64,000 nt of DNA. Origin: Macrophomina tecta. Its lineage: Eukaryota > Ascomycota > Dothideomycetes > Botryosphaeriales > Botryosphaeriaceae. The stretch is from positions 5,022,001 to 5,086,000 of the forward strand of contig JAKSGN010000007.1 in NCBI GenBank assembly GCA_024180945.1, given 5' to 3'. The notes under the pieces are model-generated. The model was not told the DNA's origin and did not search any database. It saw nothing but the letters and a program-made list of their open reading frames with translations. Both the position numbers and the translations under genes were made by a program. This document shows positions 7,985-64,000 of this stretch, piece by piece (within the stretch, counting starts at the first letter, position 1; the number at the start of each line of letters is the position of its first letter).

Positions 7985-8690
7985 ACTAGGAACGACGACC
8001 GGCGAATAGAATTTATAAGTCTAGAAGAACGCGGGGACCGCGTACTAGCTATAGGCTCGCTGATAGAATCGGTAAACCTAGCCTCCCGTAGTATAGTAGA
8101 ATCTACTAACTCGTAACATAGCCATTTTAACGTGGACGGACCTATAGAATTCTTAGAATTAGACGGCTTTTTAGCCGCTAGCTACTCTAATAGCTTCTAA
8201 TTCTTTATCTCTAGAGTTACGATATTCTCCGAGAAAAGTTTATAATTAAGAATAGAGAAACTATAATTCTCTAGTAACTTCTACTATTTCCGAAGATATA
8301 CTAGCTTTAAGAAAGAAGCGCGAAGACGAGATTATAACCTCTTTAACGCCTCTAAGGTCTTCTAGAAATTATGATAAGTAGCCTTCTCTTTAGAATGAAT
8401 CCGCTCTTATTAGTAACGTAAACGATTTACTATTAAAATGTTAGTAGGAAAAAGAATAAAAAAAATAAATTTCTACTAGTAGATATAGAAACCCTCTAAG
8501 CATTATATATAGTATAACTATAAGCCGTACACTCTCTATAATAAGACGAATGAGGACTAATCCTATAGACATGCCCGTTAGCGGAATAATTAAAATAAGT
8601 ACACATAACCGGAGTAAAGAAATTAATCACGGTTAATAACTTAGTATAATAAGCCGACTTATTACGAGAACGTTTTACGCTAGCTATAAC
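7985..8690 (-). pseudogene. Antisense frame of copy A: six-Cys (Zn2Cys6-like) then heptad region
   Basis: This is read on the minus strand, convergent with pol. At 8505-8597 codons TAT, TAT, TAT, TAT, TGT, TAT stand at spacing x2, x6, x8, x2, x7. If each TAT is a RIP-mutated TGT, this is the Zn(II)2Cys6 spacing, and one Cys (8529-8531) survives. About 52 codons around it are open. Downstream comes a Lys/Leu-rich stretch (about 8180-8420) with TAG at probable Gln sites, then a Ser-rich tail including YELVDSTIL (about 8090-8120) that resembles copy C. No known function; a zinc-cluster protein is inference from spacing. Confidence 0.55.
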
Positions 8691-8775
8691 GAAGAAAACT
8701 TACGGGGGAAAGAGAAATTATAGTAGTAGACGAATTATAGCCTTTACGGAGAATCTTCGGGCCGAAGATTCTTAA

Positions 8776-19259: not shown

Positions 19260-19292
19260 TATTTTGCCAGTCTCAATCTTCCGATTCGCCGG

Positions 19293-22335: not shown

Positions 22336-22337
22336 TA

Positions 22338-22367
22338 CCGCACCCGTGCAAAAGTCAGGGCGCACGG
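22338..22367 (+). repeat. Left terminal inverted repeat of the Tc1/mariner element
   Basis: Thirty bases, identical to the reverse complement of 23618-23647, preceded by TA. Confidence 0.95.
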
Positions 22368-22471
22368 CCAAGGCGCTAATTATCCTGCCACCAACACCAA
22401 TACTTTGGAGTCGTATTATTCAACAAGGAGTTGCTCAAATGCAGTAAGAGTTGATTCTTTATAAAGCTAGG

Positions 22472-23559: not shown

Positions 23560-23617
23560 GGTGGTGTAATGAGGCAAGGGATGAAGAGGGTACGTTGTTG
23601 TTTTGACTCGTGCACGT

Positions 23618-23647
23618 CCGTGCGCCCTGACTTTTGCACGGGTGCGG
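23618..23647 (-). repeat. Right terminal inverted repeat of the Tc1/mariner element
   Basis: The partner of 22338-22367, followed by TA at 23648-23649. Confidence 0.95.
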
Positions 23648-23649
23648 TA

Positions 23650-26600
23650 CTGAGACAAAAGGCAGCGGTAACGTTAGAGTAGGCAAGGCAGGGGTAGAAA
23701 CGAGTGATTGCATGAGCAAGTAGGTGCGCAATAGGAGGGCGGCATTCCCTATATACGCCTTGACCCTAACCCTTGCTCCGATGGTACGAGACCGTTCTGG
23801 AACGTATAGTGGTGTAGTGCTATACACGGCTGCGAAACGAGTGGCGCAGGGGGGGAATATAAGGATCGGCTGCTAGTTGTGCAGCAGCGATTTGAAGGGC
23901 TACGAAGCTTTAAAGACACGAAACAAACGCACGGGAGACGGGCGCAGTGGTTAACACTTTGCAAAATGCTAATAATAATGCCTTATCGGCCGCGTAGTCC
24001 CCGCAAGCAAGGGCGAATAGACGCCGTGTATTATCACACGACGCCAAACATCGTGAAGCGGGCTGCTCGCGGTGGGCGTCCTCCCGCCCAAGCGGCCGCC
24101 GGCCGCCCCTCTGCCCCTCCGCCCATCTCGCAGGCGAGCGGGTGGTCGGACACGTTGTTGAGAAAGTGGGCCTCTTTAGCCATTCCTCTATGTAGCGCGG
24201 AGGCCCACGATAACAGGGCATAAACGAAGGGAAAAAAGAGAGTTACTTGCCCGAGATGCTGGTGCACTCCGCGGACGAAGACGGATGGCGTCGTCGCCCG
24301 ATCGTGGTGCGGTGCGTCTTTAGACCGAGCACGCCGACAACCTCGCCTTCCATCGCGGTAAACCGACCATGCAACGCCGGTCGCGCGCGACTAGCACATC
24401 TGAGTTATCTAGTGAACAGACTTGGACGATGTCATTGCCCTGCTTGGTGCCAATATTAAGCAGAACAGAGCGCTTACCGAACAAAATCATGATGGCGTCC
24501 GTCCCGTCTCGTCATTCAAAAACCGTTTGCCATCGGCCGTCAACGGGACGGACGTCACCCTGGCAGGATGAAGATCAGTATATTTCAATGACTGAACAGG
24601 ATATGGACGTAAGCCGGCGCAGAATGTGAGGCAGTGACGTTCGCACCGAGTCCACTGGCTCTGTTAATTTGGTGTATGCGGATTGCTGGTTGACAAGTAG
24701 CTCTGAAGAACCCTCAACTTGCCAGCGGAAGCGGCTTATCACCAGTATCAGCATCTGCTTACCATCATCCGAGTTCATCCGGGGACCCACCAGCTCCAGC
24801 GGCAATTGTGGCATCTCCGTTCCTCCCACGCTGCATCGTACTCCGTATCTGCAGGTGCTGCAAGCCTTCGTTGGCATAGTCATAGGCACGAATGCATGCC
24901 GCTCGGGACAGGTAGGCCACATTGACGGTATCTGCAGCCAGCGGCAGCCAAGGAACCTGTGCATACGATCCAGCTACTGGTTGGCTGTATTTCTATTATG
25001 TAGTCGATTGAAATTGTGCGCGATCTTGCCGATAGGGCTCATCATTAACGTCGGGAAGTGTTGCCTCCCAATCGTTGTCTTTGTAGACGTGGCTGCTGTC
25101 ATCACGGGAGGCAGCGCTATGCCCGGGCTGTTGACAGCTGCCGGAGACGCTAGTTATTGTCGGTGGTGCGGTTCTGCGGATGGCCCCGCACTTGTACTAG
25201 TGCGATCGCTGTCCATACGTAATGATGATCCATCGCTGACTTGCAGCATCGCCAACCCGCGACGCCATGCGGGATCCACGGAAGAGTGCGGATGGCGCTC
25301 AAGCCCGAGCCGCAGCGTCTGCGCCGGATCCATGCGCCACTTCCAATCTGGCCGTTGAATTCGTAGCCGGGAAGGATCGTCGGCGGCAGGAGCAGTGGTG
25401 ATGTTGTGTGTGCATCGTGGAATCCGGTCGGCAGGGCAACCGGTGTGTTACGTAATACGATTTACCCGGCTCACCACTCTTGGCTATCTCCGCCTAACGG
25501 AGACTTACCTAGGAGATAACACGACTCTCTCCTTACATACCGTTTCCGTCACTTACCCCCTTATGTTCCGAGATAGGCGGCTAAATAGCGCCCCCTCCCC
25601 TAGGGTCCCTTCTTGGAGCTTGGCCTATTATATGGACGGTTAGAGAAGCACTAATATATTCGTATAGTATTCTAACGGGCCGCCTTTGCACTAGTGGCAG
25701 CGGGGAGCATCGGATGTAGGAAGTATATACTAGAATAAGCACGCCGTCGCAGGAAAAGGCCTAACGGAGAGGGTAAGGTCGCGGAAGTACTAACGGCGTG
25801 AGGCCTCTTCGCTAGCGTGTTCAATGTCGCAGCGGACGCAACCAAAGAGACATATAGAGGTAGGAAAGAGGTGCTTTTACGGGCCGAAATCACCCCAACA
25901 CTGCACGCACATGTTAAAGGGCGAGGATGCTGGTGGTAGGGCGGTAATTCTCATGTTGATTCGCGCTACAACCCCGCCCGCTTCCTCGGCCAAGGAAAAA
26001 CATAAGCCCAGCCCTACACAGGATCGCTCATCAACAAATGTGCTTTATTTTTCCGAGGCGGCCCGAGCATTGGTGGAAGACTGTAGCACTGGCAGCCCGA
26101 AAACCGCTTCCTCTTGTGGTTAGCTTCTCCTATCGCCTGAATCGGTGTAATATGTACACCACAACGAAGACTCTTCAAATCAGCCTGCGTGAGTCGGAAC
26201 TACCCCTCGGCCCGTCAGCGTCATTAACCGGCCGAAGGATGATATGCTGGTGGACCAGACGAAAGAGACGAAAGGTTGGTGTTGGTAGTAAGCACCAACA
26301 CCGCTACATGCTAAAATACCCCCTGAAGCAAACGACCCTAAGCCCGAGGAGGCACAGCTGCTGCCACGTACCGGAGCCTTCCACCTCCTGCTGGAGCCTC
26401 TAACAAATTCTTTTTCTCCTTGCTCGTACAGAGTACCTAGATATCATTAGGCCCGGCTCCCTCACACGCATGTAAAGCATTCCAGATAGACTCGGCGCAG
26501 CTTCGCTCGTCAGTTCGCGCGCGTCGGGCACATCGGGCACCAATCGTGTTAGGCCTTCATCGACTGCCGTCTCCTGCATGTGTCCAGAGCCGGAAAGCCA

Positions 26601-27409
26601 TCACTGACGGCGTAGCTACGTCTATCTAAAATGCCGGTGACCATTCTGCTTAGTTTCCTTAGCAGTAGCTATCAACAGTACAAGAAGACACTAATGCCAT
26701 TGCCGCATGGCTGGCATCCACCGCAAGGCGCTGCGGCTTTGGAGTGCGAGTAGGAGATTGTTGGTGTCTAGATCACCTGGTGTGTGAAATAGAATAAGCG
26801 GCGTACTACGGGCCACACGGTCGGCGACGTCAGGGTTCGGCGGCGCGTGAGGAGGACGTGTTGTCACGGCGGCATCCATGCTTGCATTACACGGCGGCGG
26901 AGACGAGGATGCGGCGATGGCGATGGCGATGGCGATAGGCAGGGGAGGAACGGGCAATGGGCGGCGGATGGCGTGGCACACGCTTGGTTGGCGTTGGCGT
27001 TGACGGAGCAACGCGCGGCGGGATACTTATCTTCGCCATTTTCTCTGGCCTCACCGCCCACGCGACCACTTCCGCGTCCTCGCTCCATAGCCGCCCCATG
27101 GCCACTGCCTCCTACTAGTCCCGTACTCTTCTTTCCACACAAAGCTCCAATCGTGCGGCTCTGTCGCCTGTAAAGCTTTGCTTCCCTTGTGGCGCTGCGT
27201 CTGTGCGGGCTTTCAGCCCATGGGGTTACCAAGCCCTTCTACTCTAGGGTTCGTAACACGCCTTAACTCATCGAATGTACTCAGCCATCTCCCGCAAAGG
27301 TCCTTCCAACTCATTTCACTAATAGAGTTTAGTCCCCCATCCCTATCTACCTCTAGTAAGGTGATTCGCAAAAGACGCCGAACCTTTAAACCTACCCAAT
27401 ATCGTTGGC
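23650..27409. other. Low-copy DNA without a supported gene
   Basis: Many short overlapping frames occur; the longest is 229 codons (plus strand, 24669-25358). None shows a domain, intron pair or family motif. A CpA-poor patch at 25490-25700 resembles mutated repeat DNA. A GGCGAT hexanucleotide run is at 26910-26937. Confidence 0.35.
26910..26937. repeat. GGCGAT microsatellite
   Basis: Four to five tandem hexanucleotide units, the last one imperfect (GGCGATAGG). Confidence 0.8.
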
Positions 27410-29126
27410 ATGGCTCTAGCGCTACTCGTAGAAATCTGGGATATGATCGTTGGGCGTCTTCATCCCTTATGTTTGAAACAATTTCGCTTTGCGAACACTG
27501 AGCTAAATCGCCTGGTAACTCCATACCTCTTCGAAGCAGTGTCTTTTAATCTTGATGCGGGAGGGCTCGACTGCCTTTCGGCCATAGCTGCCAGCGAGAG
27601 GCTACGTGCACACGTCAACGTCATCATGCTAAGGCGGATGTACGGGTTGCGGAACTTTCTCGAGGGGTTCGAGTCTTGGGAAAGCGCCGTGTTTTGGGAA
27701 CCTTCTGTGTTTTCGCAGCCGTTTGAGGATGGCGACGACGGTAGTATGGAGCTGAGTGAGGATGGAGCGATGTCCGCGGACGAATGGGCCAGCCTCTCGA
27801 CAAATCAGCGAAACTGTCTCTTCGAGGAGTACGAGCGTGACCTTGCCACTCTGATGGATTATCGGCGGCGGCTTATCCGGAGCATCAACTACAGGCCATT
27901 AGGCATCTTAGAGCAGCCGGAGCCGCTGGACGCCCAGGTTGCGAATGAGGACTGGTGACCGTCAGACAGCCTTGACGTTGCAGTGTCCAGATTAATGCAG
28001 CTCCGGTCCTTCCAGCACGAGTCGGCCTACCTCATGGATCGGACTTGGGAACACGCTGGCGTCGCGTTCGTTTCCATCGTAGGAGGCTCTCTTACTACAC
28101 AGGTAACATGGAATCAGAGGAGATGGAGAACTTGCAGCTCTCGCTCGCCATTCGGGCTCTGGGGCTGAGCAGCGCCGGCAGTGAAACAGGCCTCCGCCAT
28201 CTGGACCTTTTGGTGACGGAATCAGCCTTTTGGGGTGCGGTAAATCTCCGTCGCCTCTGGGACCCAGAGTACAGTGCTCTCGATCGGGAAGACATATTTT
28301 GGATGGAAGAGGACGCAACAGAACGCTAGGTCGGTCGAGTTGGAGGGATAGACTCAGCGCTGTTGCGCCAGGACCGCCTAACGAGAGAGTTAGTCACCGT
28401 GGAACAGGCCTTCGCAGGCGTAGAGAAGCTGGAGCTGGACATCCAGTGCGGTAGTCACGGAGATGATGCTCTAGCGCCGCCCGTCAGCTCTTCCGCTTTC
28501 TCAGGCGCGCTAGGCAACTCGAGGTCTTTTCACTGGTGTTTCACCGCGATCCAACATTTGCCGACGAACCACATCGCACCTTTCCCCACTGTGGAGGGAA
28601 AACAGGCGAGGCTGCCAGCAATCTGCTCCGATGGCCTGGAACGCACCAATGCTTACCGGCCATTAAACGGCTTAGCTTATCGTTAGCCTCTCGCGGCGAC
28701 GACCTTTTGCTTTTCCTTTCCACGCTCGCCCCATCGTTACGCTATCTTTCCCTCCTGTCGATCGCCTTACTACCCTACAGTGGACGTTGGGAGTCCATTA
28801 TCGAATATTCAACAAACGAGCTGCAATTGCATGAAGTCGAGCTCCGCTGCTTAGAAGACGACGGTGTACCAAAGGGCAGACTTATCCTCGAGCCAACAGA
28901 TCTTAACGGGTGGGGAGAAGGCGAGGATCCCATCTGCTACAACCACTACAGAGATAGTGTGTACCACTACGTCCTTGGGAAATCATTGTCACAGCCTATA
29001 CTAGACTCGGGCGAATTCGTGCGGCAGCATGTGCACGATTGCAAGAGTGCAGAGTGCCAAAACGTAATAATGTCAAAACTTCTCCCGGAAAATTCGGCAC
29101 TAGAAGAGAGCTCTTTGAGCCTATAG
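27410..29126 (+). pseudogene. F-box-like protein, broken by two stops and two frameshifts
   Basis: The N-terminus has the F-box pattern: a start LxxEIWDMIVGRL, then LKQFRFANTELNRLVTPYLFE (residues about 7-42). F-boxes bind Skp1 in SCF ubiquitin ligases. The same frame continues after TGA at 27956-27958 to about 28100. A shift then leads to a second open part ending in TAG at 28327-28329, which resumes in the same frame. A second shift near 28480 leads to the C-terminal part, with leucine-rich stretches (LSTLAPSLRYLSLLSIALL) and stop at 29124-29126. The ordered, complementary pieces argue for one former ~550-residue protein. Confidence 0.65.
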
Positions 29127-38202: not shown

Positions 38203-38309
38203 TATTAGAATATTTAATTTAGTAGTGTTTTAGATTTAGTTATGTCTTATACTCGTTGTATACCTATCTTAGTAGATAAGCAAGTTATATACCCGTTTTA
38301 CCCTAGTAG
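38203..38309 (+). repeat. 3' LTR of copia, left part
   Basis: The first 107 bases of the LTR, ending in the AGTAG target duplication (38305-38309) created by insertion of copy B. Confidence 0.9.
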
Positions 38310-38777
38310 TATTACGGCGCAGCCTTTATAGGGTAAGAAATAGGCGGAATAAGGGAATAAAGCGGGGCGTAGAGACGCGCCATAGAAAGATCTATAGAAA
38401 GAGTTACGTAAATTACGTAATACTAAGTATTAATCTATATACTCTCGCCTAGGTAAATATAGATTAAATAGATTAAACCTCTTTAATTTCTATAATCTAT
38501 CCTCTATAGAAATAGATTAATAGAATTAATACTAGATTATAGACCTTTTCTACGAGTATATAAACTATACTTCTTAGATAGCTTCGACCTTCGTAGTTAA
38601 CTTTAATAATAGAATTTAGACTCTATTAGTAATACGGTCTTTATACGTAGTACTTAGTCTTATTATATATTCGACTTGCTCTTATCCTCTTCTTATATCT
38701 ACTTAAGGAAATTCCCTTAATAGGTTTTCTCTCTCTTTAGTATTTAGATTTTTAGAGGCAGAGGCCCGCTCGTTATA
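38310..38777 (+). repeat. 5' LTR of chromovirus copy B
   Basis: Starts TATTACGGCGCAGCC and ends CGTTATA. It shares the distal ~220 bases (from TATATAAACTATACTTCTTA on) with copies A and C but has its own upstream part. Confidence 0.92.
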
Positions 38778-38879
38778 CTTTAACTACTATTCTTATAAGG
38801 AGAGGAAGGCTCTAAGATTAAGTCTTATTAGGTAAAATATTACCCCCTAACGAGTTTAGGAAATAGTAATAGTACTAGG

Positions 38880-40240
38880 ATTTTAGATAAAGGTCGACCT
38901 AGTAGAGGGTTAGGTTTAGGGTACCTAGGGGTAAGCTTAGCCCGCGTAGCAAACGGAGCCTACTAGAGCTAAGCTCTTATAGCTTATCGAGGAGTTAAAG
39001 GCTTAGAATGCTTAACTAATTAAGTATATAATAAAACGAAGCGCTACTAAGGTTAAAGTAGTGGTACCTAAGAAGTTTAATAAGAATAGAAAGAAGCTCT
39101 AATTCTTTCTACTTTAAATATAACGCTACCTCTAGTTTAATTAAGCGTAATTCGATAGCGACGCTAAGAAAGTACTCTTCGTATTAATCTATCTTAGAGA
39201 AACGGTAGAGATATAGATAGAACTATACCTTCGCGACTATCTAGCTAATAAATACTCTCTCGAGAAGAGACGAGAAAAGACTAAAAAAATCTTCGGTACC
39301 TATACAAGATTCGTAGATAACCTTAGAACTATTTTTAACGATTAAGATAAAGTCCGTAAAGCCTCTAATAATATTATAACCGTTAAATAACTAGAATCTA
39401 TAGCTATCTACGTAATTGAGTTTTAATAGCTTATAGTCTACCTTAAATAATTAAATGAGACTTTCCGCGACCTCTTCTATAAAGGCCTAAAGGAAGAAGT
39501 TAAGAAGAATATAATTATCTATAAATACCTAGCTACCTTTTAGAAGATAGTAGACCTTACGTCCTAGATCGACGATCGTATATACGAGTAGAAGATAGGT
39601 TCTCGATAAGCTAATACCTCGAAGCCTCGCCATAAAAAAATAATTCTTAAAGGCGGAGATGCTATAGCCCTCGACGCGACTAACTAATAGAATTCTAAGA
39701 AGGGTAATAATAACGGTTAAAATAATAATAAGAAGCCTAAAGAACCTAATTTAAACTAGACGAACGAGTAGAAATAGCGCTATAAGAATTAACTCTATAT
39801 TATCTATAGTAGTAATAAGCACTTTTCTCCTAAGTACCCGTAGAACCCTCGTAATAAGAAAGATAGAAAGTAGACCTTAAGCGCTTAACGTAAAGTATCG
39901 GTTATATCCCGCTAAAATAACTATAATACGCTATACTAGATAGCCTGCTATAACGATAACTACTAGATATACTAAAGCAGCAAAGATATATTAGGATAGT
40001 ACCCCTACGAACTACGATAATTCGGTATAATAACTAGGAATGAAGGAGTTATTAAGACCGACGATTTTATTAATAGCTTTTTCTTAGACGAGGAGCTCGT
40101 AAATAGCGAGACTAAAGAACTATATGACTTAATAGATAGCGAAGTAGAAGCTATAATAAATTCTATAGCTCTTCTAGAACTCGAGCGCCTTATAGCTAAG
40201 TATAAGATTAGCGTAGAAATAATAAACGAAAGCGACTAAC
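38880..40240 (+). pseudogene. gag of chromovirus copy B
   Basis: A charged, helix-rich coding relic aligned with copy C (51120-52500). A zinc-knuckle remnant lies at about 39775-39845, where copy A keeps a Cys codon and this copy has CGC. Stops replace Gln codons. Limits are approximate. Confidence 0.6.
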
Positions 40241-40829
40241 TCGCCTAGGTAATCTAGATTTCCTACGAAAGAGGGTTGGCCCTTATAGTACTATAGATAT
40301 AGCGCTAAGGGACCCTCTAGGAAACCCGAATCGAGTAAGATAGAAAGAAGTACGAGCTTATTATTATAAAGAAAACCGCACTCGTAATACTTTATTATTA
40401 AGGAATAACTACTTAATAGTAAGTAGACTACGACTCTCTTTAAGAATTAGTAAGAATTCTTTACTAGTATAGTATAGCGACTATCTAGAACTATATACTT
40501 TAGTAGATACTAAACGAGAAACTTAATATACTAGCTTTTTAATACTAGGTACGAAAAAACATAGTCTACTAGTAAAAATAGTTACGTACTAATAAATAGA
40601 CTAACTAGAAGCAAGCATACCTTTAAGTTAATAAATAAGAGGACTATATATATAGTAAAGTCTACGACTATCTAAAGCTAAAAAACTAGACGGCCCTACG
40701 GTATTAGAATCGACTTAGAGGCCACGGTCTAGGTCCCTTTATATAGTATTACGCATATCGAATATAGAAATTCTTACCGGACTAAATCTTTAGAGATAAT
40801 TTAAAATAAAAAAAACGCTTAACGGACGT

Positions 40830-43800
40830 CCTATCTCGATACTAATTAATATAAAGTCGAGCGGAAACTTTATATATAACGAGCTTATAAAATAATGTAA
40901 GATTCTATACTAAAAAAAGAAAGATCTATATCCGCTTAGCGGGTTTAATAGAAAAAGCTTAGTCTACGGAGAAGACTAGGTAAAAATAGAAATAAAGAAA
41001 GTAACCCTCTAAATTAAAAACTATTAGAAATAGATCTCTCTCAACGTCTAACGTATCCCCGGGTATGATATTATCCTAGGTATACCCTAGATTCGAATAT
41101 AGAAACCTATCTTTAACTTTAGTAAAGAAGACGAGATAGTCTTCTAAAAAGAGATTAACGACCTCCTATAAAAATTTAGTTTATATATAGAAAATAGGTT
41201 AATAAATACCCTATAGCGACTCTTATCTACTATAAATTAAGAAGTAGCCAGCGTAAGGCCTAAGAGTAGTAGCTATATAGGCGACTCCGATAGTAGTATA
41301 AGTTAGAACTAGGACTACGACGTAAAAGACAAAGCCTCTTTAGTAAAATATAATTCTATCGCAGGAATAAGCCCTATTAAGCGAAATAATACCCTCGAAT
41401 TATTAAGAAAAGAGTAGGACTTAAATAATAGCATAAGGCCTAGCGACGGTAGTATTAATAGTAACCTTAAGAAAGGCCTAAAATAGAACTAGGACTATAG
41501 TATACGAAACGCCGCCTTCTCGGTAAAATATAGCGCCTTAAGCGGAGTAAGCCCTACCGAGTTAAGTATTTCTAAAGATTAGGTATAATACTTATTACGA
41601 AAGACTACGTGAAGAAAGTATAAGGCTAAGAGTAAGACTTCATAAAAGTAATTAGTAGCCCCGAAACCTCTCGTAGACGTCTAAATAATCTTAAGAGAGG
41701 TATTTAGGCATATATAACGCTAAGAATAATAGGTCTATCTTATATATATTAAACTCTTACCGGCAGTATAATAAAGAGTATTAGCTAGGGCCTAATAAGA
41801 AAGGCTAAAGAATAAGAACTATTTAACTTCTATCGGAGGAGATAATCCTGCGAGAATTAAAAGAGAATAATATAGTAGTTTAGAAATATAGTAGTAACTA
41901 TAAGAAATACCGCTAATATCTAAAATAGAAATAGTACCCGAAGAGTATTAAAACTTAGTTACCGTTTACTAAGAAAGAGGAAAGGGAGACTTACTAAAGT
42001 ATTAACTATAGAACTATAAAATTCCGCTTAAGTTAGGAATGAAGCCGGCTTATAAGCCTATCTACTTCTTATTAAAGAAGGAAATAGAGGCTTTAAAGAA
42101 ATATATTAAAAAGAACCTCGAACGAGGATATATTTAGCTATTAACGTTATTCGCCGGATATCTAATTCTTTTCGTTTCTAAGAAGAATAGTAAGTTACGC
42201 CTCTACATCGACTATTAATAACTTAATGATATTACGATTAAGAACTAATACCCGCTCTTACGTATTAACGAGCTCTAGAATAAGTTAGAGAATACGAAGT
42301 ACTTTACGAAGCTAGACCTCTAAAACGGATATTACTTAGTTAGAATTAAAGAAGGGGAAGAGTAGAAAATAGCTTTCTAAATAAGGCTAAGACTCTACGA
42401 GTATACGGTTATATTATTTAGGCTTACTAATGCGCTAGTAACCTTCTAGAATCTCGTTAATAATATACTACGCGACTACTTAGATATCTTCTATATAGCT
42501 TACCTTGACAATATTTTTATCTTCTTAAAAATACTCGAGGAATATAAGAAGTATATTAGAAAGATTCTAGAAATCCTCTAAGTAAAGAATCTATCTATCG
42601 TATTAAAGAAATACGAATAGCACGTATAGAGAATAGAATTCTTAGGCTTTATTATTATTTCCGGATACGTCGGTATAGACGACTTAAAACTAGACTCTAT
42701 TAAGAAATAGCTAGTACCGAAGACGATTAAGAAAGTATAGTTCTTCTTTAGATTCGCTAACTTCTATAGAAAATTTATCTAGAACTATTTAAAGATTACG
42801 AAACCTTTAACGCGACTTACTTAGAAGAAGTATAGCTTCTACTAGAAAGACGATTAGTAGTAAGCCTTTAATTTACTAAAGAGAATATTTTACGAAGTAT
42901 CCATCTTAGGAATATATAATCCTAATAAACTAATTAAAGTAGAAACTAATACGTTAGAATTCGCCCTAGGAGTATATCTTAGCTAGCCTAATAAAGAAGG
43001 TAGATAGTATTTAATCGCGTTCTACTTTAGAAAGTTTACCCTAGTAGAGCTTAACTATAATACTTATAATAAGGAGCTCTTGGCTATTATCTTAGTATTT
43101 AAGCACTAGAGATACTACCTAGAAGAAGCCGACTAATAGATAATAGTATATTATAACTATTAGAATCTTATACGCTTTACTACGACTAAGAAGCTAAACC
43201 GACGATAGATTCGCTAGTTATAAGAATTAGTATCCTATAATTTTAAGATTACGTATAGAAAAGATATAGATAACGCCACCGCTAACGCACTTAGTAGAAG
43301 GGTAGACTATATAGAAGAAAGAATTAAGCCGTAATCTATAGTATTATAGTAGATAAGTAATAGATTACTTACTCTTACTAGATAGTCGTTTCTAATACTT
43401 CGTATCGAGTTAAACCTATAGTATTAGAAGATTTAAGAAGTATACGCTTAGAACTTCTTCGTATAGAAACTTTTAGCGCTTAAGGACGACCCGCGTGTTA
43501 CTCGAGATAGAAAAGAAACGCTTCTCTTTAAAGAATTAATCTATATTCCGATAAGACTATAAGAAGCACTCGTTAAAGATATATACGTAGCACCCGCGTA
43601 TAGATATTAGGGCATCAATAGAACGACCGAAAGAATTACGTAAAACTTCTACTTTCTAGGATTATAAAAGACGGTTTAACGTATAGTTTCGTAATACGAC
43701 CTTTATATCCGAAGTAAAGCTATAATATACGCTCTATACGGATAACTATAACCCCTAGAAGTACTAGAACGACTATAGTAATAGATTACGCTAGACTTTA

Positions 43801-44850
43801 TTACGAAATTACTAGAGTCTAGAGATCTACTTATAGAAGTTAAGTTCGACTCGATCCTAGTCTTTATTAATAAACTTATGAAGTACGCCTACTTTTTACC
43901 CTACCTCGAGGTATCGAATATAGAATAGCTAGCCTATACGTTTCTCTAATATATCTTCGCGGATTACGGAATGCCGGAAGTATTAGTCTTAGATAGAGAT
44001 AAGCTAATAAGATCTAAATTTTAGTAAACGCTTACGCGCTAACTTAGAGTAAAGAATAAACTCTCTATAATAGTATACGCGCAAACCAACGGCTAGATAG
44101 AACGGATAAACCGGACTCTCGAATAATATCTCCGCTATTATATTAACTACCTATAGGATAATTAGGCTATATAGCTACCTATAGTATAATTCGCCTATAA
44201 TAGCGCTAAATAAGAGTTAACTAACGTATCCCCGTTTTTTATTAACTATAGATTTAAACTAGACGCGTATAGAGAAGCTATTCTAAGTAGAAAATTAGCC
44301 TAGAAAGACGTTCTTAAAGCCGAGTAGCTAAGAGAATTATATAAAGCTATTAGTCTTAACCTCGAATATATACGAATTATAATGTCTAAATACTATAATA
44401 GATGGTACTAGGCGGTACTAAACCTTAAAAGGGGGGATAAAGTATACCTCCTTATAAAAAATATTAAATTAAAGTGACTAAGCGATAAATTAGATTTTAA
44501 GAAAATCGATCTATTTAAAATTATAGAAAAACTCGGAGAAGTTACGTATTAACTTAAATTACCTAATATACGGATAAATTCTACCTTCTACGTAGTATTA
44601 CTCGAGCTAGTACTAGAAAATGCTACTATCCTAAAAACTTAAGAAGAGATTATACTAGAAAACCCTAACGCCGAAGAAACCTAGTACCTAGTCGAAAAAA
44701 TTCTAGACTATAAGCGGTTCGGACGTTAGCTTAAATATCTCGTTAAATAGAAAGAATACGGGAATAAGAATAACTAGTAGATATCTAAGGATAATATATA
44801 CCTAGATCTTATTATAGAGTTCTATCGCTAGAACCCTAACCTCCCGCGGA
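40830..44850 (+). pseudogene. pol of copy B: protease to chromodomain
   Basis: The retropepsin relic is at about 40843-40885 (LIN then SGNFIYNE). The RT box at 42498-42524 reads AYLDNIFIF (one catalytic Asp changed to Asn), and the RT motif LGFIII lies near 42635. RNase H, including ANALSRRVDY, is near 43285. In integrase, a zinc region is near 43600 and the DFITKL core near 43795; LDRDKLIRSKFW is near 43993, with Ser of the usual SDR changed to Leu. The GPY/F-like part is at about 44400-44560. The chromodomain relic at 44684-44770 reads YLVEKILDYKRF, then LKYLVK. Stops stand at Gln and Trp sites. Confidence 0.9.
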
Positions 44851-44879
44851 AACGGGGTCGCCCTAAAAGAATAGATCTA

Positions 44880-45480
44880 TCTATAACTTAGCCCTAGACG
44901 AAAACGCAATCCTAGCTACTAAATTAAGCGGAGGACCTCTAGACCTCGAGAAACCCTTAATAATAGAAGGGCTTAAAAAACGCTCCGGAGTTGGTATGTC
45001 TTCGCTAGCTATATATTATCTATCGCGATTCTTCTTCTTAAGTCTTTTTAACTTCTCGATAGACGCTAGCTCGCGATTAAATATCTTCTTATACTTCTCG
45101 TTTATTAAACTTAGCTGCTTGCGTAACCGCCGCGTATAAGCGCGCGCCGCTATCTTAGTATCTTTCGCCTTCTCTAGCTATCTTTTTAGCCGCTCTATCT
45201 CCGCGTATACCTTATCCCCTATATAAGTTAGCTAGAGAAGCTACTAGAAGAAAAGAAATCTATACTTTCTACGCGTTACTACTAAGTCATACTTGCGATT
45301 CTTCTATAAATAACGACTATACTTCCTGGAGTCTACGCTTATAAAACACTTAGAACCCGACGACCGATACGCGCTATAAGGAGAAGGCATCTCTCGACGT
45401 TTATACGAAATAGATTCCGCTAGGGTTCGTCGACGCTCGATAGAATTAGTAGTAGTCCTAGCTATCGTTAGTACGCAACG
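44880..45480 (-). pseudogene. Antisense frame of copy B: Zn2Cys6-like cluster and coiled coil
   Basis: The minus-strand frame is open from about 45480 to 44880 except for TAG triplets at likely Gln codons and one TAA near 44880. An ATG at 45388-45390 is followed by six codons at 45289-45378 with spacing x2, x6, x8, x2, x6. Five are TAT (Cys to Tyr by TpG to TpA) and one TGT is intact at 45346-45348. This is the C-x2-C-x6-C-x5-12-C-x2-C-x6-8-C rule of fungal zinc clusters, with a basic x6 loop (LxKNRK). A long Lys/Glu/Leu heptad-like helix follows (about 45220-45000, e.g. RLRKQLSLINEKYKKIF). DNA binding is inference. Confidence 0.6.
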
Positions 45481-45556
45481 TACGCGACTAGAAAATACGG
45501 GTATACGAGGACTTTATACCTACTAAGTTACGGAATTCTTCGGGCTAAAGAACCCT

Positions 45557-45570
45557 AAAAGGGGGGATAG
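45557..45570 (+). promoter_or_regulatory. Polypurine tract of copy B
   Basis: AAAAGGGGGGATAG immediately precedes the 3' LTR. Confidence 0.8.
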
Positions 45571-46038
45571 TATTATAGCGCAGCCTTTATAGGGTAAGAA
45601 ATAGGCGGAATAAGAGAATAAAGCGGGGCGTAGAGACGCGCCGTAGAAAGATCTATAGAAAGAGTTATATAAATTATATAATGCTAAGTATTGATCTGTA
45701 TGCTCTCGCCTAGGTAAATATAAATTAAATAGATTAAACCTCTTTGATCCCTATAATCTGTCCTCCACAGAAACAGATTAATAGAATTAATACTAGATTA
45801 TAGATCTTTCCTACGAGTATATAAACTATACTCTTTAGATAGCTTCGACCTTCGTGGTTAACTTTAATAATAGAATTTGGACTCTATTAGTAACACGGCC
45901 TTCGTACGTAGTGCTTAGTCTTATTACGTGTTTGACTTGCTCTCACCCTCTTCTTGTACCTACTTAAGAAAACCCCCTCGATAGGTTTTCTCCCTCTTTA
46001 GTGTTTGGATTCTTAGAGGCAGAGGCCCGCTCGTTATA
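45571..46038 (+). repeat. 3' LTR of chromovirus copy B
   Basis: A 468-bp partner of 38310-38777. Its distal part (for example GTCCTCCACAGAAACAG near 45759) is less mutated than the 5' copy. Confidence 0.92.
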
Positions 46039-56000: not shown

Positions 56001-57880
56001 ACTATAACCCCTAGAAGTACCGAAATAACTATAGTAATAGATTATACTAGACTTTATTATGAAGCTACTAGAGTCTAGAGATCTACTTATAGAAGTTAAG
56101 TACGACTTAATTCTAGTCTTTATCGATAGACTTTTAAAGTACATATACTTTTTACCCTATCTAGAGGTATTAAATATAGAATAGCTAGCCTATACGTTTC
56201 TCTAATATATCTTCGCGGACTACGGAATACCGGAAGTATTAGTCTCGAATAGAAATAAGCTAATAAGATCTAAATTTTAGTAAACGCTTATACGCTAGCT
56301 TAGAGTAAAAAATAAACTCTCTATAACGATATACGTGTAAACTAACGGCTAGATAGAATAAATAAACCGAACTCTTAAATAATATCTTTGTTACGAACCC
56401 CCGGGGACAAGGGCTTTATGACCCCGCGGGCTGGGAGCCCGCACGGGAAAAGGCACCGCAGGGGCCAGAAACCCTCACGGGCAGCAGAGCCGCACGACCA
56501 AGGCGCCCGCACGGGAAAACCAGCCTCAAGGGAGGACGGCGCGTACGGACCCAGGCTAGGCAACAACAGAAGCCCACACGGGAACGACGCCCACGCGGCG
56601 CAGCGACACACCAAGGGCAGAATCCCGCAGGGGAAGAATCAGTCACGGAAGTACGCTTGGCCAAACCGGGTAGTAAGTACAGGAGTATACACCCTTGCCA
56701 AGGCAGGAGATGGAACCCGGGAAACCGACTTTCGAGCACGAAGAACGAACAAGAGAAAGGCGGACATATCGTCCGCTCATCAAGGAAGAAGTCGGATTCC
56801 GGAAAACGGGCATTAGCGCCCAAGTCACGTGGGGCCCACCAGGCCCACTCGAGGATCAGAAGCCTTGGCACTGATCCAACTCTCAGATTGATCCAACACC
56901 ACGACTGATCCAACAGTCGTCCTGATCCCCAGATTGTCATAGCTTTCCTACAGTATATAGAACACACTCATTAGGTAGTACTTTGGCCTTCGTGGTCAAC
57001 TCAAGATTCCAATACAGACTTATTGGAGGTAACAAGCCTGACGCGCACCGCGCACCGACCTGTCACGTGATCGCTACCCATCGTTCCAATCCTTTACCCT
57101 TCTCTTGTCCTTCAAGGTAAACCTTACCGCTACCTGACCCTGCTAGGCGACTCCGAAGCCTAGTGGAAGAGGCCGCCGTTACAATCTTCGCTACTACATT
57201 AACTACTTATAGAATAACTAGGCTATATAGCTACCTATAGTATAATTCACCTATAATAGCGCTAAATAAGAATTAACTAACGTATCCCCGTTCTTCGCTA
57301 ACTATAGGTTTAAACTAGACGCGTATAGAGAAACTATTCTAAGTAAAAAATTAGCCTAGAAAGGCGTTCTTAAAGCCGAGTAGCTAAGAGAATTATATAA
57401 AGCTATTAGTCTTAACCTCGAATACGTACGAATTATAATATCTAAATACTATAATAGACGGCACCAGGCGGTACTAAACCTTAAAAAAGAAAATAAAGTA
57501 TACCTCCTTATAAAAAATATTAAATTAAAATGACCGAGCGATAAATTAGATTTTAAGAAAATCGGTCTATTCGAAATTATAGAAAAACTCGAAGAAGTTA
57601 TATATCGACTTAAATTATTTAATACACGGATAAATTCTATCTTTTACGTAGTAATACTCGAGCTAGTACTAGAAAACGCCACTATTCTAGAAACTTAGAA
57701 AGAGATTATACTAGAAAACCCTAATACTAAAGAAGACTAGTACCTAGTTAAAAAGATTTTAGACTATAAGCGGTTCGGTCGTTAGCTTAAATATCTTATT
57801 AAATAGAAAGGATACGGGAACGAGAACAACTAATAGATATTTAAGAATAATATATACCTAGAGCTTATTATAGAATTTTA
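53080..57880 (+). pseudogene. pol of copy C: protease to chromodomain
   Basis: The retropepsin relic is near 53094-53140. The RT catalytic box at 54754-54780 reads AYLDDILIF, the only one of the three copies with YLDD intact. RNase H ends near 55560 (ANALSR). The integrase zinc region is near 55860, and the core is at 56050-56290. The solo LTR splits the core at 56389-57183, and GPY/F-like sequence follows at 57480-57640. The chromodomain relic is at 57741-57830 (YLVKKILDYKRF, then LKYLIK). Stops at Gln/Trp sites still prevent expression. Confidence 0.9.
56389..57183 (+). mobile_element. Solo LTR of the related gypsy family, inserted in copy C
   Basis: This 795-bp LTR runs from TGTTACGAACC to CCGCCGTTACA, with perfect duplications ATCTT (56384-56388, 57184-57188). 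It is clearly homologous to 6246-7017, including CTACAGTATATAG and CCTTCGTGGTCAAC, but diverged by substitutions and small indels. It is unmutated and GC-rich inside a TpA-rich host. GC-rich frames on both strands are not genes. Confidence 0.93.
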
Positions 57881-57899: not shown

Positions 57900-58620
57900 C
57901 TACGGAGACGAGGTCGTCCCCAAACGAGAACAATAAAAAATCCTTAAAAACCGTTAAATCTATCGTAAACGAGGATAAACGGGTAGAATTTATAGGCTTA
58001 GAAGAATAAGACGATCGTACCTTAGCCCTACGTTCGCTAGCCGACTTAGCTATCTATAGCGTAGTAGAATCTACTGACTCGTAACGTAGCTATTTTAATA
58101 AAGAGCCCTTAGAATTTTTAGAATTAGAAGAGCCCCCGGAAGAACCCTCCGCCTTAAAGCGTTTTAGCTCCTTAAGAGAGTTAAACCCTATATAAATTAT
58201 TTAAAAACAACGCTCTTTTAGAAAGCGCTACTATCTATATAACTACTCTAACTTAGTAGCCGCCGTTTATAAGGTAGTAAAGATCGTACTCTTCTCGGCC
58301 TCTAAACGTACTTATTTTCAGTTAAGCTTATCTACTAGAGAAGGTTAGTAAAAAATAGAGAATAACTAGCGAAAAATCTATAACCCGAGTTACTTATCTC
58401 GGCGATATTATACTTCTTCCGGCGAGCCTTAAGATAAGCCGCGTAGACCTTAGAATTATTCGATAACGCTACGTATTTAGACTCGTACTCTAAATAGTTA
58501 GTATAGGAAACTATCTCTACCCCGTTTAAAAGAATATCACGAAGTTATTATTTACGAGAAAGGGTAGAACGATATTACTTAGTCGAACAAGAAATAACCT
58601 TAAAATTATTAGAATAGAAA
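57900..58620 (-). pseudogene. Antisense frame of copy C: Zn2Cys6-like cluster and Ser-rich tail
   Basis: Minus-strand codons TAT, TAT, TAC, TAC, TAT, TAT at 58410-58505 have spacing x2, x6, x9, x2, x7, again the zinc-cluster rule if each Tyr was Cys. The last loop is basic (LKARRKK). Downstream, a heptad-like stretch (TKLE, LYR, RFLKERCF) with stops at Gln sites leads to a Ser/Gly-rich tail. That tail contains LRYESVDSTTL (about 58050-58085), matching YELVDSTIL of copy A. Frame continuity is lost in places. Confidence 0.5.
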
Positions 58621-58721
58621 CGTTTTAAAGTTATAATAAAAACTTATAGATAGAGAAAGAAAGGTAAGAGACCCGTAAAAAAATATACGTAGACGAAAGA
58701 ATCTTCGGGCCGAAGATTTCT

Positions 58722-58735: not shown

Positions 58736-59020
58736 TATTACGGCATAATCTTTACGGGAGTATAGAAAGGAAGGTAGAAAAGCCTTAAAAGAGATCCTAC
58801 CTAAAAAGATCATATTACATAGCTTAGCACGTGACCTTTCCCTATAGACCTATATATCGCCCTTAAGAGCCTAGGCTATATAGAGTAATAGTCGCCTAGT
58901 ATAGCCACGGCGACATCTAGTAATACTAGATTATAGATACTTTTCTATCTATATATAAACTATACTTCTTAGATAGCTTTAACCTTCGTAGTTAACTTTA
59001 ATAATAATTTAGTATATTAT
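58736..59020 (+). repeat. 3' LTR of copy C, 5' part
   Basis: Matches 50594-50878 with RIP-type transitions. It ends where element D begins; ATTAT (59016-59020) is the presumed target duplication of D. Confidence 0.9.
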
Positions 59021-59138
59021 TGTCAGGACAATAGGCCCTGGCATACCCTTAGGGTACTTATACCGTGCATTCCACGTACTTATCACGTGCTACGCACGGG
59101 CCCCCAGTATATAACGCCACCAAGGGGTAAATCCTACA
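59021..59138 (+). repeat. Probable 5' LTR of copy D
   Basis: Begins TGTCAGGACA and contains GTATATAACG (about 59107). The end is uncertain: ATCCTACA at 59131-59138 is a candidate, but the 3' LTR is outside the window, so the length cannot be confirmed. Confidence 0.55.
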
Positions 59139-59389
59139 CTACTAAAAATTCGCACCTAAGAATATACAACTCTTCTAAAGGCTCCCTGCTTATAACCAGC
59201 CCATTTACTCACAATCAAATCCTTCTCAATTCCTTTCGAAAAAGCAGCCGGCCTTAAAGAACTATACATAACGATTCCAACGATCCCAACAAAAAGAACG
59301 ATTTCACGATAATAAGAACAAGGGGCCAACAAAGCCGTTCGAACACTCGAGGCGAACGAACAAAAACAGGCTCATTAACCCCCAAAGGC

Positions 59390-60330
59390 CATCAAACGCT
59401 AATCGTCGATAGAAGCGCCCAGGGCGCTAAACGCCCAATAGGCGACGCGGCCGAACCAGGGGCGCCTACAGCTATCGACGAACTACAACGCTTACGTAGC
59501 GCACCTACAAAAGGCATACCGGAAGCCGAGCTCCTAGAACGCCTTAACCGCGTTAAGGTTCTACAACAGCTACAAGCGGCCCTTAACGGCGAACTACCTA
59601 CCGTCCCCACGCCAAACGCAGCGAAACGCATACGGAAAGCAAGGTAAACGATAGCGAAAAGCGACTCGACCTCCTCGTAAGAAACCCACCTCCAAAACTC
59701 GAAGGCCTTACTCAGGGCTCATACAACTTATAGACGAATACGGTAGAGACACGTTTCGGCGTACACCGGGCGAATAAGGACTGCCTCAGAAGGACCCTCT
59801 AGGCCACCAAAGAGCTATCTAAATATAAGACCCTCTCCCAGCACGTCCAAAGACGTCTAACAAACCAAAAAAAACCAGCACTACTCTAGCAAAAGTTCAA
59901 GACGTTAGTACAAAATCATATTCGTAACCCTATCGTCCACCGCCTTAACAACGCTATTAGTTATTATACTACGGTAATAAAGAAGGGCCAGAAGTTCATA
60001 AAATTCTACGCCCAAATAAAGACGTACGAGGACAAATTCACGTATCGAATTTAAAACGTAGATTACCATATCAACTAAATTTACTCTCGGCTCCTACCAT
60101 CTATACGTACGGAGCTCGTGCGCCAGTCCTTCCTCACTAGGGTGCAGGCAGAAGAGGATTTAGTAGCTAAAATCCAACGCGTTAAGCAAACGCTAGAGGC
60201 AACAAGGCCCTATAAAAAGAGCGAGAACGAGCAGTAGTCGTAGGGGACCAAGCGCCCTTTTACCACCCCTAGCCTAGAACGCAACAGTCCCCATAAGGAT
60301 TTTAGAAATAGTAAGAAGGCTAAAGAAAAC
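59390..60330 (+). pseudogene. gag of copy D
   Basis: A hydrophilic helical sequence, for example APTAIDELQRLRS and ELLERLNRVKVLQQLQAALN (about 59465-59590), typical of gypsy capsid N-termini. The remainder is followed with stops at likely Trp codons. No zinc knuckle is clearly seen. Confidence 0.6.
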
Positions 60331-60559
60331 TAAAAGTCCAAAGCTTTAGCTCCCCCAAAGAACGCAGGCGATTCGCATAAGTTTAGCACCCCGAACGTAG
60401 GCGAAAAGCAGGCCAAAGACCACGCCAACTAGGCGAACCACAAAGATAAGTAAGGCTCGAAAAAAGAAAAGCCCTAATCGCTTCCCTCTCCTCCTTACGG
60501 TTAGGGCCTCAAACGGGAGGCAGTTCAAAACGCATAGAAATCATCGCTTCGATAGAAAC

Positions 60560-63500
60560 CCCATCCGGTCCTACCAAAATTCGAGCATTAATAGATTATA
60601 GTTATGACCTAAACCTCGTATCCCTTAAATACGTAGAGCGACTTACCTTATAAAATATACAAGCTAGTACCAGGCCGTCTACCCGCCTTCTTAATAACAC
60701 CACCGTTACGTTACACGACTCTTATTATATAGGAATCACCACGTACGACTCGGGGGACGCCACGCGCACCACCGAACCCCAACCTTACTAGAGTAGCTCG
60801 TTCACGGGCTACGATACCATACTCGGCATGCCCTAGCTCGGGGCTACCGGGCCGGTTATCGATTTTAGAAGAGAAACGTTTCACTAGAGCACAAACTCGC
60901 TAGAGCGTATATATCTAGTAAGCGCCACTAAATTATTCCAGGACTTAGAACCAAGGGAGCCTATTTACTCCCTCTAGCCGTCCAACTACCAGCTCTCGCC
61001 TACGGGTAACCTAAAAAGTCAAAGAAATAACTTCGACTCTTTCGCAGCCCTCTCGCGGGCGGAAAGCATGCTAAACGCACGCGAGAAGCAGGGCGGGGGT
61101 AACCAAAATCCAAAAGGGCTCCCACCTAACCAAACTCTCTCCTACCTACGGGGGCTACACTCCCGCATCCAAAGAGCATGCGAACCGCATAAGAAACTCG
61201 CCGGTTTAGCAAACGCACTACTAGCCAAGATAGCTAAGAAGATCCGCGACGAGATTCCGGATACTTATAGAGAGTACTTAGACGTATTTTCAGACGAACA
61301 AGCTACCAAGCTACCGCAACACACTAAGTTCGATCATACTATTAATCTCGTTATAGGTTCTAAGCCACCGTCAATACCCCTATATAGACTCTCCCAATCC
61401 GAACTACGGATCCTCAGGGAATACATTAACAAGGCCTTGGAACGGGAGTAAATCAGGCATAGTAAGTCGCCTACGGGCGCGCCTATTCTCTTTACCCCCA
61501 AGGCAGACGGCACCATGCGGTTATACGTAGATTATAGAGGCCTAAATAAGGTCACGGTCAAAAATAGCTATCCTATACCACTAGTAGGCGAGCTACTAGA
61601 CCGCCTAAGCACCGCAAAGATCTTCACCAAACTAGACCTACGCGATACTTATCACCGAATCCGCATAAAGGAAGGTAATAAGTGAAAAACAGCATTTAAG
61701 ACGCGTTACGGGCATTACGAGTACCTAGTCATACCATTTAGCTTAACCAACGCACCCGCAACCTTCCAGTCGTATATCCACCGAGCCCTAAGAGGCCTAG
61801 TAGACACGATTTACGTAGTATACTTAGATAACATACTCATATACTCAGCAGATAAGTCTCAGCACGTCGAGCACGTCAAACGTATTCTCCAAAGATTACG
61901 TAATTAGAACCTCTACGCAAAACCGTCTAAATATAGCTTTTACACAAAGCACGTCGAGTTCCTAGGCTTCATCGTCACCCCCCAGGGGGTTATCATAGAC
62001 CCCGTAAGAGTCGAAGCCATCAAGGACTAGCCGGAGCCACAAAGCTACCGTAATATTCAGGTTTTCCTAGGCTTTGCCAACTTCTACAGGCGCTTTATAT
62101 AAAATTACTCCACGGTAGTTCAACCACTAACTAGCTTACTAAAAGAAGCAGCCCAAGATCCTAATCCGGGGGCCAAACGAGCGCCGAAAAAGAGGCCAAC
62201 CAAATAGTATAAGCCCTAGAAATAGCCCGCAGGGGCAAAGCAGGCGTTTAGCAAACTAAAAGCATACTTTACGCAGGCTCCTATACTACGGCACTATAAC
62301 CCAAATCTTCCAGTCATGCTAATCACCGACGCATCGGACTATACCTACGGCGGCATCCTTCTCCAACCGCTAGATAGAGAGGATAACCAGCGCCATTAGC
62401 ACCCCGTTACGTATTTCAGCCATAAGTTCGCTAGTACTAAAATACGGTACGACACCTACGACAAGAAACTCCACGCGATCGTACAGTACTTCAAGCATTA
62501 GAGGCCTTACCTAGCACACGTACAAACGCCGGTGCGGGTATTATCTAATCATAACAACCTACGTTATTTCATAACAACCAAGAGCCTCACGGCTCGACAG
62601 GCTCGGTACGCTAAAGTCTTAGCTAAATTCGATTTTAATATCGAATATAAGCCGGGTAAGTCTAATCCAGCAGACGCCCTTTCGAGGCGTCCAGACTACG
62701 CCCTTAGCTTTAAGAAGGGTAACAAGCGCACCTACCTTAATACTATATTACCCACACTACAACGCAAACTCCAGATTCAGGGGTTAAAAGAACCCCTACG
62801 CACCACCAAAAACCCCGGCCAAGAGCACGAGGAAAACCTACGTACAAACGGCGATAGTAATTACCAAACCGCCTTAGTCTATTCCGTCACTTATAAGGAG
62901 CACGACGAGTTCGCTTATAAGGGCCTAGCACCTCCGGTATACACTTACTACGAGGAAGCCAGCACGAGCTTAGTATAAAGCTTCGTACCTCAGTCTACAG
63001 TAATAGTAGCCGCTATAACCAAAACAGCGTTCGAAGCTACTCCTAAATCGTTAGTTAATTTTATTCGCACTAAGCAACGAAGAAACGCCTTCTACGCAGA
63101 CATACGAGAACAGCTTACGAAAAGGGTACTTTTAGCGTACAATCAGTATACAATCGACGAGCAAAGACTCCTACGCTATAAAGAGCGAGTATACGTGCTA
63201 AAGTATACTCCGCTACGCGAGGAAATCCTACTTAGAAATTATAACGATTCGAGTAGTAGCCATTACGGCATCCGCCGCACCCAGAAGGTACTTTCTAGAA
63301 AGTACCACTAGAAAGGCATCACCGCGGACGTTAGAAAATATATACAAAGCTACGATACCTATCAACGTAATAAGGCTCGCCGGCATAAGCCATATAGATT
63401 ATTACAGCCACTACTAGTAGCCGCTCAACCCCATAGACACTACTCCCTTAATTTTATCACGGACTTACCAGAATCCGTAGAACAAGACAGTCGAGCATAT

Positions 63501-64000
63501 AACGCAGTTCTCGTACTCGTTAACCGTTTCACCAAATATATACGTTACCTACCAGTTAAAAAGACGATTAATAGGGCAACGCTCGCAGACCTTATCATAA
63601 ACGACGTCTTCGTACAATTTAGGCCGCCCAACAGCCTAGTCTCGGACAGGGGCTCAACGTTCACGAGCCAGTTCTAGAGCGAATTATACTATAATCTTAG
63701 AATTAAGCATAGACTAAGTACCTCCTTTCACCCGCAGACAGACGGCCAAACGGAGAGGCAAAATCAGAAGTTAGAGGCGTACCTACGCCATTACACCTCC
63801 TAGAACTAGTTAGACTAGGTAAAGCTTCTCTAGTAGGCTTTACACGCCTACAACTAGAAAACCCACTCTTCTACAGGCTTCGCACCAGTTTAACTAGATA
63901 CGGGGGTAGAACCTAACTCCTAGAACGGGGTTTAGGACAACCTTAATAGGAATTCCCTAACCGAATCGGCCGAAGCAGCCAAAAAGCACGCGGAAAGCAT
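60560..64000 (+). pseudogene. pol of copy D: protease, RT, RNase H, integrase (runs off the edge)
   Basis: The protease relic lies near 60575 (IRALID, then LNLVSLKYVERL). An open stretch at 61068-61451 ends in the RT N-terminus (EYLDVFSDEQATKLPQHTKF and PLYRLSQSELRILREYINKA). The RT catalytic box YLDN is at 61821-61832 (Asp to Asn by G to A), then VEFLGFIVTPQGV near 61950. RNase H has LITDASDYTYGGILLQP near 62325 and ADALSRRPDY near 62670, with an open stretch at 62532-62978. Integrase has GHYGIRRT near 63265, LNFITDLPES near 63455, LVSDRGSTFTSQF near 63645 and [13 protein letters not shown] near 63735. Stops replace Trp (for example 61691, 61906, 62030). Confidence 0.9.

Follow-up and report, generated by a model that had tools for sequence, protein, structure and literature searches.

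What was encoded on the strand opposite to pol in the decayed chromovirus that occupies positions 38307 to 46038 of a 64,000-nucleotide stretch of Macrophomina tecta DNA (contig JAKSGN010000007.1; this whole stretch is referred to below as the window)? A first-pass annotation of the window had pointed to six codons with the spacing of a fungal zinc cluster, antisense to this element (copy B) and just upstream of its 3' long terminal repeat (LTR), and had proposed that the element once encoded its own DNA-binding protein. The sequence is here read as the relic, damaged by repeat-induced point mutation (RIP), of an accessory gene of the BRTN family, predicted to have encoded a dimeric zinc-cluster protein that likely binds a palindrome beside the 3' LTR; taken as a whole, this reading is considered fairly probable. 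Comparison among copies and relatives has demonstrated the cysteine ancestry of the motif, a codon-level selection that changes frame across a predicted intron, the homology to BRTN and a compensated dyad beside the gene. That there was such a gene, that it was selected and that it belongs to this family is, on these sequence comparisons, highly probable.

The six codons, from 45378 down to 45289, read TAT, TAT, TGT, TAT, TAT and TAT at spacing 2-6-8-2-6, exactly as had been described, and the minus-strand translation of 45289-45390 is MPSPYSAYRSSGSKCFISVDSRKYSRYL*KNRKY, the antisense frame of copy B being interrupted by stops. Counterparts were sought in the same 54 Mb genome. Queried with the antisense region of each of the window copies, the genome returned at least 52 (B), 42 (A) and 44 (C) DNA matches; 20, 30 and 30 of these, respectively, were analysed as loci, together with four further loci forming a subfamily B2 (84 loci in total). 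Codons were read by alignment to one of three reference loci, L005 (B type), L022 (A type) or L068 (C type), blind to whether they encoded cysteine or tyrosine, with thresholds of 0.9 for coverage and 0.55 for identity, and the ancestral state was read from natural unmutated copies.

The 72 of 84 loci that passed these thresholds yielded 432 cells at the six positions, comprising 161 cysteines, 268 tyrosines and 3 other residues (cysteine or tyrosine in 429 of 432). All six cysteines were present in 15 loci, one of the B type, one of the C type and 13 of the A type, the last being near-identical and hence counted as one lineage. The 12 excluded loci align poorly; of ten whose codons were read, seven have only cysteine or tyrosine and three (L020, L070 and L078) mostly otherwise. 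Loci L014 and L017 overlap and represent one interrupted copy that was counted twice. An earlier count (71 of 73 loci scored; 426 cells with 151 cysteines, 274 tyrosines and 1 other) had chosen the best-fitting cysteine/tyrosine offset for each locus and discarded loci with fewer than five of six positions; since both steps biased it toward cysteine and tyrosine, it was redone by alignment.

The change from cysteine to tyrosine is G to A on the antisense strand, corresponding to C to T in CpA on the opposite strand. Every cysteine codon has a CpA opposite, and CpA is the preferred target of RIP, so the protein motif can still be read in copies that RIP has destroyed. On the counts in the aligned loci and the 15 loci with six cysteines, the tyrosine codons are decayed cysteine codons, which bears out the earlier interpretation of TAT as their RIP product. 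An ancestral tyrosine was ruled out by the same 15 loci and by 23 relatives of the BRTN set, in each of whose cysteine columns cysteine reaches at least 90%.

The 13 near-identical A-type loci (L022 to L034) carry an undamaged antisense gene, while the other copies in the genome are RIP-mutated. This subfamily may have been amplified recently or may have escaped RIP.

With regard to the family, the first-pass annotation knew of none with a name; the protein comparisons supplied one. A first protein search returned seven relatives, including a Botryosphaeria dothidea protein with 74% identity over 63% of the query. With three aligned sequences as query, at least 16 relatives were obtained among the best 7998 candidates scored, P0017 and P0018 being two of them, and a search with P0018 gave 67 including itself, among them P0046 and P0048. 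In UniRef, P0046 (Botryotinia) is named Putative BRTN and the name of P0048 begins with Zn(2)-C6 fungal-ty; the closest named matches in the protein searches were from Macrophomina phaseolina and B. dothidea. When three rows from the window's genome were aligned with 23 rows of the BRTN set by hhalign, a probability of 99.7 and an E value of 3.6e-26 were obtained over 121 columns covering both the cluster and the following coil. Two cysteines were invariant in the 23 relatives and four were present at 90% or more, the exceptions being P0029, P0031 and P0048. Judged by this homology, the antisense gene belongs to the BRTN family, the antisense gene of Boty chromoviruses.

In Botrytis cinerea, the gene brtn of Boty-like chromoviruses and its product BRTN were reportedly described by Zhao et al. 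(2011, Virology, PMID 21802103). Where the gene lies, that its element bears a chromodomain and that it has relatives in Sclerotinia and Monilinia is stated in PMC8365987, PMC7264820, PMC4227169 and PMC5987419. Among the literature matches listed, no title or abstract opening described a zinc cluster or an intron in BRTN, although the original brtn paper may do so. The window element is a chromovirus, as is the host element of BRTN: a broken chromodomain is still readable on the sense strand of copy B, and the C-type relative L068 matches Pfam Chromo with 44.6 bits (cut-off 25.1). The antisense gene likewise lies between pol and the 3' LTR, and its end adjoins the chromodomain end of pol.

A public gene model of M. 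phaseolina, P0009 (B0J12DRAFT_691639), is 65% identical over the full length and has tyrosine at several cluster positions. It looks like an annotated RIP-damaged copy of the antisense gene.

The structure of the gene differed from that first described. The ATG at 45390, previously taken as the start, is probably not the original one; a methionine lies 25 codons further upstream in seven of 11 B-type loci (it is absent from copy B and three others), and the original start was placed there for this reason. The heptad-like helix noted after the cluster was recovered as a coiled coil, positioned, however, on a predicted second exon beyond an intron. A short intron following the cluster was predicted in L022, L068 and L005 (47, 47 and 45 nucleotides, respectively), at a place and in a phase (phase 1) common to all three subfamilies. 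The predicted signals consist of a GTAAGG or GTAGGT donor and of GCTGAC ahead of a CAG or TAG acceptor, the L005 intron reading GTAGGT...GCTGAC...TAG. In the A and C types, the cluster and the coil are in different reading frames and are joined only by the predicted splice. All 13 near-identical A loci retain a spliced frame of 250 residues with six cysteines; the spliced frame of L005 contains stops. In P0012 (B. dothidea) and P0014 (M. phaseolina), the MCD-x-KK tail of exon 1 runs directly into the coil, consistent with splicing at that point. The gene is thus predicted to be split by an intron.

Two C-x2-C-x6 halves with six cysteines are present in unmutated B, A and C copies, and the spacings are 2-6-8-2-7 in copy A, 2-6-9-2-7 in copy C and 2-6-8-2-6 in copy B, the last gap being 7 in both A and C. 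Zn_clus was the Pfam family matched by most of the relatives (34 of 58, best E 0.001). In a structure model of BRTN, the cluster blocks reached predicted local distance difference test (pLDDT) values of 89-97, and the model superposed on the LAC9 and GAL4 clusters at 1.8 Å; all seven rows of a second structural look were DNA-binding zinc-cluster proteins. Sequence searches of the PDB yielded nothing significant with the B exon (LAC9 and GAL4, E 0.49), the C exon (TRIM5, E 0.29), the A exon (nucleocapsid entries of human immunodeficiency virus (HIV) as the best, E 0.059 and weaker) or the family profile (GAL4, E 0.14, behind an unrelated match at E 0.028). The predicted protein is best read as a zinc-cluster fold with a coiled coil after it, and the fold itself is considered very probable.

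A zinc-cluster protein encoded by a real antisense gene might nevertheless act on RNA or on other proteins, possible roles being nucleocapsid-like chaperoning, help with nuclear entry or antagonism of silencing. There are few basic residues between the first cysteines compared with the classic zinc-cluster pattern, and the best, though non-significant, PDB matches of the A exon were the HIV nucleocapsid entries mentioned above. According to PMC7264820, LTR retrotransposons carry antisense genes of unknown function and the product of one such gene in plants is nuclear, which would leave room for such roles. However, the second structural look returned DNA-binding zinc-cluster proteins exclusively, and the gene is preceded, at a constant distance, by a compensated dyad that contains inverted CGG triplets. 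A role directed at RNA or protein is considered rather unlikely.

This dyad, CTTCGG-C-CCGAAG in unmutated copies, is situated between the polypurine tract and the antisense gene. Inverted CGG triplets are a classic target of dimeric zinc clusters. Of the 84 loci, 41 have the exact core upstream of the gene; a RIP-tolerant scan assigned a best site, in some cases a poor one, to 70. L022, L068 and L005 (3.4-3.8 kb each) contain a single core apiece, and the only ones in the window adjoin copies A and C. From the end of the core to the start codon, the distance is 67 nucleotides in A, 68 in C and 72 in B, the upstream methionine being used for B. Pairing was evaluated in 13 rows chosen to cover the subfamilies. 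The 8-bp arms paired in 97.1% of 104 cells, and two pairs had changed on both sides between subfamilies (8 cells), while slid controls gave none; with shuffled partners, the compensated cells and the covariation score were reached in 0 of 500 runs.

At oriented position 1325 of L022, upstream of the antisense gene, there is another perfect dyad, GGAGTCACGTGACTCC, whose core is CACGTG. At arm length 8 it was not seen in L068 or L005.

The compensated dyad would also fit a hairpin or a plus-strand priming signal of the retrotransposon RNA or complementary DNA, unrelated to the antisense protein. It lies about 10 nucleotides from the purine tract AAAAGGGGGG at the edge of the 3' LTR, and compensation is expected of an RNA stem just as of a protein-binding site. 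With a centre of one base, however, the stem must open to a loop of about 3 nucleotides, and the conserved distance of 67-72 nucleotides to the antisense start is not predicted by priming alone. This explanation is given the same low likelihood as an action on RNA or protein.

According to the preferred reading, in which a dimeric zinc-cluster protein binds the palindrome, exon 1 would encode the cluster and exon 2, beyond the predicted phase-1 intron of 45-47 nucleotides, the coiled coil and a tail. The protein would be produced from a spliced antisense messenger RNA whose transcript starts near the 3' LTR, would dimerise through the coil and would bind CTTCGG-C-CCGAAG, by which the element may tune its own antisense promoter, the 3' LTR, or both. 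Being antisense to the genomic RNA and not removed by its splicing, the intron could survive reverse transcription. Binding of the protein to the element's own dyad is regarded as a serious possibility, if short of probable. More tentative still is the general proposal that chromoviruses of the BRTN lineage encode an antisense zinc-cluster factor, an inverted-CGG site where polypurine tract and antisense promoter meet, and an intron proof against reverse transcription, together forming an autoregulatory circuit.

When considering this reading, certain results were noted that weigh against it. The PF00172 gathering score of 21 bits was not reached by B (10.3), C (10.4), P0046 (13.7) or P0075 (19.3), and A was not listed; formal membership of the zinc-cluster family is not claimed in view of these scores. 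For the Zn(II)2Cys6 cluster proposed in the first-pass annotation, which had named the PF00172 profile and structure prediction as checks, the spacing was confirmed and the BRTN model superposes on LAC9 and GAL4, but the profile scores fall short. The count of compensated pairs in the dyad was reached in 216 of 500 runs with shuffled partners. Moreover, dyads with arms of at least 8 arose in 38 to 86 per 500 shuffles of a locus, so that the case for the dyad rests on its conservation and compensation and not on the presence of a dyad itself.

Selection on the antisense frame was evaluated with one pair of loci per subfamily (L022/L037, L068/L071 and L005/L083), by counting, for each antisense codon position, the differences not explicable by RIP in the second copy; in the last pair, in which both copies are RIP-mutated, only transversions were counted. 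With binomial tails serving as a guide only, because the copies share history, the differences at positions 1, 2 and 3 amounted to 17, 2 and 43 in exon 1 (43 of 62 at position 3; tail 7e-9), 18, 11 and 47 in the first part of exon 2 (47 of 76; 3e-7), 9, 12 and 5 in the intron (5 of 26; 0.96), and 9, 11 and 7 in the last part of exon 2, where the three pairs gave no position-3 excess (7 of 27; 0.85). The pairs were chosen after others had been viewed (nine of type A, four of type C and five of type B). Results are consistent among the nine A pairs; the pair L068/L052 has zero non-RIP differences, and in L005/L014 the five exon 1 transversions, near a rearrangement, all fall outside position 3. 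By its excess of third-position differences, the antisense frame was under protein-level selection in exon 1 and the first part of exon 2.

Were the antisense frame a by-product of sense coding, an extension of pol past the chromodomain would be the real gene and the antisense cysteines its shadow. The sense pol frame is open past the chromodomain across the whole antisense gene in L022 and L068 (849 and 831 open codons, respectively, within the stretches analysed), and the last part of exon 2 is without antisense codon bias. In the A and C pairs, however, substitutions are most frequent at sense position 1 of exon 1 and at sense position 2 of the initial part of exon 2, from which it follows that the selected frame is the antisense one, shifting at the intron; furthermore, homologs with the cluster and the coil are annotated as separate proteins. 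Sense coding was rejected as the cause for exon 1 and the first part of exon 2 on the basis of the A and C pairs, and as an overall explanation it is very improbable.

When the whole window was scanned on both strands for TGY or TAY codons at 2-6-(5 to 12)-2-6, a single place emerged, the copy B cluster, and dinucleotide shuffling of copy B reproduced the exact spacing in 2 of 1000 runs (in a smaller set, 0 of 200). With a looser spacing set, hits were obtained in 37, 37 and 31 per 1000 shuffles of copies A, B and C, respectively, and at four places in the window, namely the copy B cluster, copy A, copy C and 40132-40224, a site inside pol that was taken as chance. The spacing pattern taken alone is suggestive, and its proof must come from relatives. 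A chance origin in an AT-rich relic, to which the loose-spacing frequencies and the pol site lend some colour, was refuted by the unmutated six-cysteine copies and the codon selection, stands against three syntenic subfamilies and homologous proteins as well, and retains practically no likelihood.

The LTR pair of copy B shows 89.8% identity across 471 nucleotides, and the composition of this copy is of the RIP type, with a TpA/ApT ratio of 1.75 and a (CpA+TpG)/(ApC+GpT) ratio of 0.13, compared with 0.81 and 1.23 in 14000-28000. By blastn, copies A and C gave no match to copy B between 44871 and 45527; they nonetheless hold diverged antisense counterparts at the syntenic place. The features are collected in Table 1.

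Table 1. Positions of the antisense gene, the dyad and the related features in the window.
Feature	Position	Strand	Remarks
Chromovirus copy B	38307..46038	+	5' LTR 38307-38777, 3' LTR 45568-46038
Exon 1, antisense gene	45264..45465	-	From upstream methionine position; end set by L005 donor
Decayed six-cysteine cluster, C-x2-C-x6-C-x8-C-x2-C-x6-C	45289..45378	-	1 Cys and 5 Tyr codons remain
Predicted phase-1 intron, 45 nucleotides	45219..45263	-	Aligned to L005; donor decayed in copy B
Exon 2, predicted coiled coil (~45013-45216) and tail	44812..45218	-	Read against L005; coil matches relatives; ends beside pol chromodomain end
Decayed dyad copy	45536..45552		Between polypurine tract and antisense gene of copy B; mapped from L001
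Exon 1 counterpart, copy A	8477..8687	-	Mapped from L022; cluster 8505-8597, 1 Cys and 5 Tyr codons
Intact dyad core, copy A	8755..8767		Beside antisense gene
Exon 1 counterpart, copy C	58382..58634	-	Mapped from L068; cluster 58410-58505, 6 Tyr codons
Intact dyad core, copy C	58703..58715		Beside antisense gene

Copies A and C also contain GC-rich inserts of about 0.8 kb at different sites (6246-7018 and 56387-57184, respectively). Their ends read TGTTACGAACCCC...GTTACA, and they resemble solo LTRs of another element. Over the 5 kb from 59001 to 64000, a sustained strand asymmetry was observed, with a GC skew of -0.15 to -0.22 and an AT skew of +0.21 to +0.30.

Antisense genes in chromoviruses and the BRTN family itself were already known. 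As far as the literature was searched, the predicted intron antisense to the genomic RNA, the three subfamilies with different cluster spacing, the protein-level selection demonstrated through RIP and the adjacent compensated dyad are new. For one antisense gene there is now a likely biochemical identity; its protein shows evidence of selection in three subfamilies, its exon structure is predicted and a candidate binding site lies next to it, and the question is reduced to a single binding experiment.

Compared with BRTN of Boty, the window gene has the same antisense location between pol and the 3' LTR of a chromodomain element, and the cluster and coiled coil are homologous. In contrast, the three subfamilies of the window's genome have a predicted intron right after the cluster, whereas P0017 and P0018 on the BRTN side are continuous; the last gap is 7 in the A and C types compared with 6 in BRTN, and the C-terminal part differs. 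Antisense open reading frames between pol and the 3' LTR are also described for the plant elements Grande (gene23), RIRE2, Retand and PvRetro13 (PMC7264820), with place and orientation as in the window gene and with functions given as unknown; a nuclear location is reported for the Grande product, and a zinc cluster is not mentioned in the available part of that source. With respect to the fungal Zn(II)2Cys6 factors, the window and BRTN proteins fall below the Pfam cut-off, have fewer basic residues in the first loop, are borne by retrotransposons and are without a known activation region, but they share with GAL4, LAC9, HAP1 and Pho7 the six-cysteine pattern, the predicted fold and a coil after the cluster.
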